Below, piece after piece: positions 11,919-34,050 of a stretch of 64,000 nt of DNA. The notes under the pieces were generated by a model. That model made no database searches. It saw only the letters and a program-made list of their open reading frames with translations, and was not told the DNA's origin. The translations under genes were made by a program, and so were the position numbers. This stretch comes from Spirochaetia bacterium (lineage in GTDB: Bacteria; Spirochaetota; Spirochaetia; CADAEX01): NCBI GenBank assembly GCA_017446885.1, contig JAFSOR010000009.1:1-64000 (forward strand). Direction: 5' to 3'. Positions within the stretch are counted from its first letter, which is position 1. Each line of letters opens with the position of its first letter.

Positions 11919-12042
11919 GTCAATCACTCCATACTGAAACTATCATATAGAAATACTTTTCTGTCAACGCCTGCTTTCTTTTTCCTTGACAAATCGACTG
12001 GGGGGTAGAGTAAATTATAAATCTAACCGAAAAGGATATCTT

Positions 12043-12479
12043 ATGAAAATCAAAAAATTCATTATTATTCTCCTGGCTCTGTGCCTTGTATTATCTATGG
12101 CCGGCTGTGGCGGTTCCGGCGGCAGCGACGATAATGGCGGTGGCAACGGTGGAGGTGGTAGAGATGATCCTGTATCATCCGGACCGCTTTGCTTTACTGC
12201 AAACGCAGCATCAACTATCCAGATTTATACTACAACTGGTGCAAATCCTTCTTTGGAATACTCCACTGACGGTTCCACATGGCAGGCTTTCGAAATAAAT
12301 CATGATTATAACCTTGCCAGCGGAAGTAAATTTTATCTGCGTGGGATCCAGCCGATTTCTCCGAAAGTCCATGGGGTGTCGGTGTGGCTGCAACAGGAAC
12401 ATTCAAGTGCCCATCTGCTCTCCCTGCAACTTATGATACTGACCATATTCCTGCTGGCTGGACAAAAACTGATTTATAA
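12043..12479 (+). pseudogene. Decayed BspA-like surface lipoprotein (frameshift, internal deletion)
   Basis: A lipoprotein signal (Cys22 in MAGCGG) and a Gly/Asp linker lead into PLCFTANAAST and STDGSTWQAF, the first domain of treponemal BspA-like surface proteins. After about 12355 the frame changes; in the shifted frame it reads GTFKCPSALP and HIPAGWTKTDL then TAA, the standard end of these proteins. The leucine-rich repeat middle is missing. Full-length relatives are long surface lipoproteins that bind host proteins. The gene looks collapsed to its two ends with a one-base shift. A strong terminator follows. Confidence 0.75.
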
Positions 12480-12500
12480 GATTATTTTAAGCAATCTTCG

Positions 12501-13955: not shown

Positions 13956-13982
13956 TTGACTCTCTCTCTCTCTCTCTATGAT
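13956..13982 (+). promoter_or_regulatory. Promoter with a (CT)9 spacer, probably phase-variable
   Basis: TTGACT (13956-13961) and TATGAT (13977-13982) are separated by 15 bp made entirely of CT repeats; the tract is (CT)9 at 13960-13977 and overlaps both boxes. One extra unit would give the optimal 17-bp spacer. Slippage of such tracts switches promoters in Haemophilus hif and Neisseria por/opc genes. The downstream gene encodes a lipoprotein, the usual kind of target. Confidence 0.75.
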
Positions 13983-14014
13983 AGGAATTACTAATAAATA
14001 CTAGGGAGGAGAAT

Positions 14015-14761
14015 ATGAAAAAATTTCTTGTTTTGATTATGGCAATTCTGCTTGTCTTTACTTTCACTGGATGCGGCGGTGGTGGCGGCGGTAGCGATGA
14101 TGATGACGATGATGATGCTACATGGCCTGTGGAGTATTATTATCAAGTCGGAGGCTCCCCTGTATCTGCTATGAGAACAGCACCTGCCACTGGAACATAT
14201 AAATATATCTATTTCTACAAAGACAATACCTATAAATCTGGCGACTTGAATGATGGTATCTTGTCAGACCCGACAGGCGAGGGCACTTACTCTGGCGGCG
14301 ACCCGCATAACAATGTGACAATCATCCTTACTGGTTCCTGGGAGGGATATACTTTAAGCGGTGAAAGTGTATCTATCAGCTCTGGATCCCTTTCAATAAA
14401 AGGAAAGACATTCTCCAGCACAGTTAACGGTTCCGGTGGTAATAATGATTCAACACCTACACCTGCAGTCATTTGGCCGGTAAGCTTCCAAGCCGATATA
14501 AGTGCTATGACAGGTGTGCCAGGAACTTTTGGATATGTTGATTTCAGAGAGGATGGAACATATATCTATGGCGATGGTATTAACGGGGTTAAGAATGACC
14601 CCGATTATGATCCTTCTGGTACCTATACTGGAATTGATCCTCATGGTGATGGAGCGATACGTGTGACTGGACATTGGACTGGTAGTGATGCTAATAATTT
14701 ACTTATTAACATTACCAGTGGGGTATTTGATTTTGGTGGAATAGATATGGTTCGCCAGTAA
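14015..14761 (+). CDS. Lipoprotein with two repeated domains, surface candidate
   Basis: 248 residues. The signal peptide ends in TFTGC (Cys20), followed by six Gly and seven Asp, a flexible acidic tether. Two homologous domains follow, about 37-130 and 152-246; both contain a WPV start, SAM, and a YIYFYKDNTYKSGD / YVDFREDGTYIYGD strand, then GTYSGGDPH / GTYTGIDPH, suggesting duplication of a beta-sandwich. The family is not recognised. A GGGAGGAG site precedes the ATG. The transcript starts at the (CT)9 promoter and ends at a good terminator, so it is a single-gene, probably on/off-switching unit. Confidence 0.85.
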   Translation: MKKFLVLIMAILLVFTFTGCGGGGGGSDDDDDDDATWPVEYYYQVGGSPVSAMRTAPATGTYKYIYFYKDNTYKSGDLNDGILSDPTGEGTYSGGDPHNNVTIILTGSWEGYTLSGESVSISSGSLSIKGKTFSSTVNGSGGNNDSTPTPAVIWPVSFQADISAMTGVPGTFGYVDFREDGTYIYGDGINGVKNDPDYDPSGTYTGIDPHGDGAIRVTGHWTGSDANNLLINITSGVFDFGGIDMVRQ

Positions 14762-14781: not shown

Positions 14782-14812
14782 GGGCTGCTCTTTCACGGGC
14801 AGCCCTTTTTTT
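14782..14812 (+). terminator. Rho-independent terminator of the lipoprotein gene
   Basis: GGGCTGC (14782-14788) pairs with GCAGCCC (14799-14805), followed by seven T. Confidence 0.88.
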
Positions 14813-14876: not shown

Positions 14877-15024
14877 AGGAAAAGGGATTGCAGGTCATAT
14901 AGCCGTAAAAACAACCAGCAGAAGGCCCCCCTGGCGGTATCCCTGGCCCGCAGGGAGCAGGACCACCGAGCAGGGGTGCCTTACTGCTGGTTGTTAGTAT
15001 ACTTGACCTGTAATTCCTTTTTCT
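14877..15024. repeat. 148-bp nested palindromic element (core copy A)
   Basis: It fills most of the 307-base gap before the zinc-ribbon gene. The outer arms are AGGAAAAGGGATTGCAGGTC (from 14877) against its near-complement ending at 15024; middle arms AACAACCAGCAG (14910-14921) and CTGCTGGTTGTT (14984-14995) pair perfectly; the centre folds again (TCCCTG/CAGGGA). The 67-bp core 14924-14990 recurs at 33983-34050 with about five changes. It may be a REP/MITE-like element or a structured RNA. Confidence 0.8.
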
Positions 15025-33657: not shown

Positions 33658-34050
33658 CTGGCAATAAACACCCCTGCTTACAGTCCCTACCTCCAGATAA
33701 CACCTGGCGTGTCCCGGTACGCTCCTACAGACAGGCAAAGGGTATACAGGCCAGTAAGCGACTTTTTGCAAAAGTCATTCCGAATTTAGTTCGGAATCTG
33801 TCCCATATACCCATGCCTGTAGCTGTAGTCCGTAATGTCCACGCCAGGTGCTTCTTGCGGCGGGTACTGTCGCAGGGGCAGCTTTTGCTGGCATGGGTGG
33901 CGATGTATGAGTTTTTGCACTTTGTTTCGTACTGGTCGAGGGGCGCGCCCCAGCCTTAAGGAAAAAGTACGTGCCAAGCTGAGGGCACCCCTGGCGGTAT
34001 CCCTGGCCCGTAAGGAGCAGGACCACCGAGCAGGGGTGTCTTATTGCTGG
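33658..34050. repeat. Composite palindromic repeat region before uvrA (core copy B)
   Basis: The 594-base gap 33576-34169 has no convincing gene. CTGGCAATAAACACCCCTG (33658-33676) is the near-complement of CAGGGGTG...TTGCTGG at 34031-34050, bounding about 393 bp. Inside are a palindrome ATTCCGAA-TTTAG-TTCGGAAT (33777-33797), a long hairpin with CCCATGCC/GGCATGGG arms (33810-33897), GGGGCGCGCCCC (33940-33951), and the 67-bp core shared with 14924-14990 at 33983-34050. It looks like nested REP- or MITE-like units. Confidence 0.65.

Follow-up and report, generated by a model that had tools for sequence, protein, structure and literature searches.

Phase variation through repeats that lie between the -35 and -10 boxes of a promoter is known mainly from pathogens, and usually from one or a few loci. 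Studies on Treponema pallidum have established that repeats lie in the spacer or at the promoter of the surface protein genes tp0126, tprL and tprE/G/J, and that these repeats differ in length in vivo, with an effect on transcription (PMC7864442, PMC3656149). Within isolates, the poly-G tract of tprL is 7 to 11 G long, and a reporter was more active with 8 G than with 10; the tp0126 promoter is optimal when the poly-G brings the spacing to 17 base pairs (bp) (PMC7864442). The (TA)9-11 tract of Haemophilus influenzae hifA/hifB alters the -10/-35 spacing in 2-bp steps, and paralogous hifA loci carry a different type of repeat, A17/A12 (PMC2651432). Similarly, one-unit changes of the repeat between the -10 and -35 boxes of Neisseria meningitidis porA alter transcription (PMC3899988). 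Here, we describe a probable promoter of this kind at 13956-13982 in a stretch of 64,000 nucleotides (nt) from a Spirochaetia bacterium (assembly GCA_017446885.1, contig JAFSOR010000009.1, positions 1-64,000, forward strand; hereafter the window), where a tract of nine CT units, (CT)9, stands upstream of a lipoprotein gene. The original prediction on this DNA had called the tract the spacer of a probable phase-variable promoter, pointing to simple-repeat spacer switching in Haemophilus and Neisseria and to poly-G as the case described in treponemes; these precedents hold, as the work on hif and porA and the experiments in T. pallidum cited above attest.

The window promoter has recognisable -35 and -10 boxes with a repeat tract between them. 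TTGACT and TATGAT had been predicted to lie 15 bp apart with CT only in between, in a tract overlapping both boxes, such that one more unit would bring the spacing to 17 bp. Direct reading gives exactly this: the spacer (13962-13976) is CT throughout, since the tract reaches into both boxes, with the final two bases of TTGACT (13960-13961) and the initial T of TATGAT (13977) being part of it, and ten units correspond to 17 bp. Dinucleotide shuffling leads one to expect 0.02 occurrences of (CT)6 in the window, and a scan of the window found no dinucleotide repeated six times or more besides this one at 13960-13977. As modest evidence, promoter-like hexamers in the window are most enriched at a spacing of 17 bp (21 against 8 after shuffling). 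Taken together with the comparisons below, the (CT)9 tract is probably a phase-variable promoter spacer whose length would change by slippage. The earlier grading as 'probable' is upheld by a multi-locus design, a swap between CT and poly-G, contig breaks within tracts, differing unit numbers in Bacilli and the T. pallidum poly-G precedent.

While the mechanism falls within the repeat-spacer phase variation already described, the design differs from each of the systems described. In T. pallidum, the repeat is homopolymeric G, changes in 1-bp steps and serves Tpr/OmpW porins, whereas here CT repeats with 2-bp steps make up the whole spacer, overlap both boxes and serve lipoproteins. A T. pallidum-type promoter, with homopolymeric G ending at the -10 box, was considered for the 13956 locus and set aside, the tract there being CT. 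The hif repeat is TA and belongs to one bidirectional fimbrial promoter region, unlike the CT repeats of at least five separate, one-way lipoprotein promoters here, and porA differs in being a single locus with a homopolymer before a porin gene.

The window feature is no isolated oddity: CT-spacer switches number at least five in a lipoprotein repertoire that relies on poly-G elsewhere in the genus. A search of the whole genome (1.75 megabases in 28 contigs, labelled C1-C28) found tracts of (CT)6 or longer in six places. The left edge reads CTTGA(CT)n in all five tracts whose left side is visible, with nine units in the window, on C10 and on C25, and ten on C17 and C1. The right edge could be read in three tracts (window, C17 and C7); it is (CT)nATGAT in all of them, and a lipoprotein gene follows each. 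The one at C7:60 encodes a paralog of the window lipoprotein (64% identical in one comparison, 59% by BLAST), and that on C17 a lipoprotein of 719 amino acids (aa) with InlB/Listeria-Bacteroides repeats, BspA-type leucine-rich repeats and an FGE-sulfatase-like domain. The number of distinct CT promoters is given as at least five because C7, which starts within a tract, may continue C1, C10 or C25. The recurrence of the flanks far exceeds chance; tract length is likewise beyond chance, and the tracts show a preference for promoters of surface or exported proteins.

Further, the same promoter position is occupied by poly-G elsewhere in the genus. Among all 26 tracts of G9 or longer in seven genomes of the genus, 15 are directly followed by a TAnnnT box, which in 11 cases is TAGACT, close to the -10 box TAGACA of T. 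pallidum tprL. A TTGA box stands 16-19 bp upstream of 13 of these 15 tracts, and a protein with a lipobox, as judged by a simple pattern test, is encoded downstream of 11. Two poly-G spacer promoters of the T. pallidum type, at C4:89468 and C5:27404, lie in the present genome outside the window. The C17 protein, preceded by (CT)10, is 71% identical over 732 aa to the C4:89539 protein, preceded by G9, and the window lipoprotein, in its N-terminal part, shares 63% identity with a lipoprotein of another genome of the genus (G002) that has a G9 spacer. As judged from such paralogs, the type of repeat swaps between CT and poly-G while its position in the promoter stays. Near-identical paralogous promoters in a further genome (G003) carry G9 and G10. 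Across the class, 89 of 395 genomes, in 28 of 133 genera, have the poly-G spacer motif (about two matches for a reversed-pattern control), and TTGACTCTCTCTCTCT, that is TTGA(CT)6+, was found in only this genome among the 395.

An exact scan for the CT promoter in a collection of 84,980 species returned two further records, both from Bacilli and both with (CT)10, which makes a 17-bp spacer, ahead of genes for secreted-looking proteins; the same exact pattern had no match in viral contigs. In one order of Bacilli (that of L067), TTGACTCTCTCTCTCT is present in 22 of 279 genomes, with no match for the reversed pattern. These genomes hold 29 TTGA(CT)n sites of 7-11 units, mostly followed by a -10-like box (L130, L131, L237-L263). 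In about 12 of the 29, the protein encoded downstream starts with a signal-peptide-like or otherwise hydrophobic stretch, and the genes behind them include lipoprotein, secreted and other genes, so that tract, boxes and part of the gene content resemble those of the present genome. The most direct evidence that TTGA(CT)n length changes faster than its surroundings comes from the orthologous promoters of a zinc-ribbon gene (L240, L263 and L241), which have 10, 8 and 7 units on nearly identical flanks. In one Bacilli scaffold (L249), a gap of N interrupts the tract, and CT flanks the gap on either side.

Unlike the promoters in this genome, 27 of the 29 Bacilli sites have arms resembling the controlling inverted repeat of chaperone expression (CIRCE), which run straight into the -35 box. 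The CIRCE consensus is TTAGCACTC-N9-GAGTGCTAA (PMC7464140). This inverted repeat is absent from the window promoter, for which control by CIRCE/HrcA was rejected, and a check of the CT promoters on C1, C10 and C25 did not find it there either. The Bacilli promoters possibly combine gating by heat stress with phase variation. As the lineage is unrelated, the likeness would reflect convergence or transfer.

Moreover, the assembly itself behaves unusually at the tracts. Four contig ends fall within CT tracts, where the shared sequence amounts to only 18-20 bp, whereas ordinary breaks in this assembly dovetail, mostly by exactly 141 bp, apparently the overlap used by the assembler. A 20-bp repeat alone should not break an assembly with 141-bp overlaps, and the true tracts could therefore be longer, or their lengths mixed in the sample; such breaks match what would be expected of a length-variable tract. 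As separate observations on contig ends, one contig (L115, C20) ends in a TA tract just upstream of a lipoprotein start and another (L090, C23) starts in one after TTGACA, possibly a third type of repeat used as a promoter spacer, and direct repeats of about 36 bp with spacers of about 30 bp at the end of C10 (L105) and the start of C28 (L095) look like a clustered regularly interspaced short palindromic repeat (CRISPR) array breaking the assembly.

How might such a promoter switch? Slipped-strand mispairing during replication would gain or lose CT units, and 8, 9, 10 and 11 units would set the boxes 13, 15, 17 and 19 bp apart, 2 bp per step. Since CT units also form the inner ends of TTGACT and TATGAT, both boxes would stay intact at each step. 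The spacer length preferred by RNA polymerase with the housekeeping sigma factor is 17 bp, so that ten units are predicted to be ON and the nine units of the assembly weak or OFF; eleven units are predicted to be weak. Since the same switch stands before at least four other genes, in addition to its poly-G versions, a clonal population should show a random mix of surface lipoproteins. We infer that slippage takes place in vivo in this species, at which lengths the promoter is ON or OFF, and that switching is of benefit, probably through heterogeneity towards immunity, phages or adhesion; the lipoproteins are predicted to be surface-exposed.

Several points weigh against this interpretation. 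MutS is present and intact, and therefore slippage would not be boosted by the loss of that repair gene. The length variation proposed for the window tract is drawn from comparison, and promoter activity and the transcription start at the 13956 locus are predictions. In addition, the contig breaks in CT tracts could partly reflect a weakness of the assembler at short repeats.

The CT run could instead be a fixed microsatellite carried along by a duplicated cassette of promoter and signal peptide, leaving a weak or constitutive promoter with no useful rate of switching. The CT promoters do have upstream sequence in common (93% over 44 nt between C10 and C1, 87% over 53 nt between C25 and C10), and their signal peptides are similar, so duplication contributes; an intact MutS also suits a fixed tract. 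However, a cassette copied unchanged sits poorly with the exchange of CT and poly-G at one position between paralogs and with copies in the same genome that differ, having 9 and 10 units. Contigs that fail inside the tracts, together with orthologous Bacilli promoters in which the number of units varies (7, 8 or 10) on near-identical flanks, argue in the same direction, and we regard a fixed microsatellite as improbable.

It is very unlikely that the CT run serves chiefly as a binding site, built on the regulator half-site GACTCTCT, or as a polypurine-polypyrimidine structure, with its length of little importance. Such a role is suggested by C21:5375 and its relatives, in which GACTCTCT inverted repeats occur at the promoter of another lipoprotein with a possible regulator gene adjoining, but no inverted partner accompanies the CT tract, and paralogs have poly-G, with no shared sequence, at the same place. 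The CTTGACTCTCT site on C21 was set apart, being an operator-like site of inverted repeats and no tract. Conserved GACTCTCT-type inverted repeats are seen there (L061, G000:C21:5375) and at L052 and L057, in and after a TTGACT promoter; they lie between a possible regulator gene and a lipoprotein-like gene and have the appearance of an operator. Transcription from another promoter further upstream, with the tract as leader or non-functional DNA, would suit the suboptimal 15-bp spacer of the assembly and a start site that is a prediction, but it is hardly credible given the strict conservation of TTGA and ATGAT at the tract edges at every locus and the leader of ordinary length and ribosome-binding site (RBS) that come after the tract.

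The features of the phase-variable promoter and its surroundings are collected in Table 1.

Table 1. Coordinates, in the window, of the two repeat-spacer promoters and the features associated with them.
Feature	Position	Strand	Basis or remark
-35 box TTGACT	13956..13961	+	5/6 to TTGACA; final two bases are the first CT unit
(CT)9 tract	13960..13977	+	read in the sequence
-10 box TATGAT	13977..13982	+	5/6 to TATAAT; begins with the final T of the tract
Predicted transcription start	13987..13991	+	inferred from the -10 position, ~7 nt downstream
RBS GGGAGGAG	14004..14011	+	sequence
Lipoprotein gene, 248 aa, begins MKKFLVLIMAILLVFTFTGC	14015..14761	+	ATG at 14015; signal peptide, lipobox FTGC
Intrinsic-terminator-like hairpin GGGCTGC...GCAGCCC, then T7	14782..14812	+	sequence
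Second repeat-spacer promoter: TTGACA, AATCGACT (8 nt) + G6, TAGAGT; 14-bp spacer	11986..12011	+	compare poly-G promoters of the genus, -10 TAGACT
Lipoprotein gene behind the G6 promoter	12043..12480	+	C-terminal part in another frame; C-terminal homology by eye

The gene to the left of the window promoter, for an ATPase with DUF4143, is divergent, and the lipoprotein gene is therefore a single-gene unit. This agrees with the original prediction, as do the lipobox in the product and the terminator-like hairpin after the stop codon. The lipoprotein has a Gly/Asp-rich linker and two related domains of about 100 aa. It matched no Pfam family above the cut-off, the only hit being a sub-threshold, lipocalin-like match (E 0.037), and an AlphaFold model built without relatives had a mean predicted local distance difference test (pLDDT) score of 31. 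A dispersed repeat occurs in the window at 33700-34037 and at 14917-14978, as well as upstream of the CT tracts on C25, C17 and C1; it spans 338 bp, with 93% identity, between C25 and the window copy at 34k. It has a terminal hairpin, GGCACCCCTG...CAGGGGTGCC, located a short distance upstream of three CT promoters; the core of this hairpin is found in six of the seven genomes of the genus. The start of the 16S gene on contig C17 and the poly-G promoters agree with a spirochaete.

Along with the multi-locus system, the second repeat-spacer promoter goes beyond what had been noticed in this DNA before. It lies 2 kb upstream of the (CT)9 promoter, and its G6 tract is probably a short, decayed version of the poly-G spacer; the gene behind it is probably a deleted or frameshifted remnant. 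Two further observations concern G tracts outside promoter spacers. A G10 tract lies within coding sequence at L157 (G000:C13:57140), where the relatives L134 and L156 have G9 with the frame apparently kept, and this genome may therefore hold the OFF frame of a coding phase switch. An intergenic poly-G/C tract, apparently orthologous between G002, G006 and G005 (L140, L136 and L160), has 10, 12 and 11 bases there, respectively; it is located upstream of a gene for a small membrane or secreted protein and is a candidate length-variable site.

CT-spacer promoters were not found in the literature searched, where CT repeats are reported from other systems, such as the adhesins of Helicobacter pylori and the coding sequence of tprA. 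As far as that literature shows, the CT type, its use at multiple loci, the exchange with poly-G and the parallel, CIRCE-linked use in Bacilli are new. The link between the CT tract and a CIRCE-like operator in Bacilli suggests a combined control by stress and chance, which is likewise absent from the papers searched. It is tempting, if somewhat more doubtful than not, to view CT spacers as an independently evolved, multi-locus transcriptional phase switch of gut bacteria. Such a switch would have partly replaced the poly-G switches of lipoproteins in this spirochaete-like species and, fused with CIRCE in Bacilli, would leave surface proteins both stress-gated through HrcA and randomly switched.

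Overall, repeat-spacer switching here extends across a lipoprotein repertoire, and in uncultured bacteria. The 2-bp step of CT and the boxes that it would leave intact make the ON and OFF states predictable from the genome sequence, and raw metagenome reads could therefore be used to measure natural switching without culture. Finally, the type of repeat can be exchanged without a change of its position, and this argues for selection on slippage itself.
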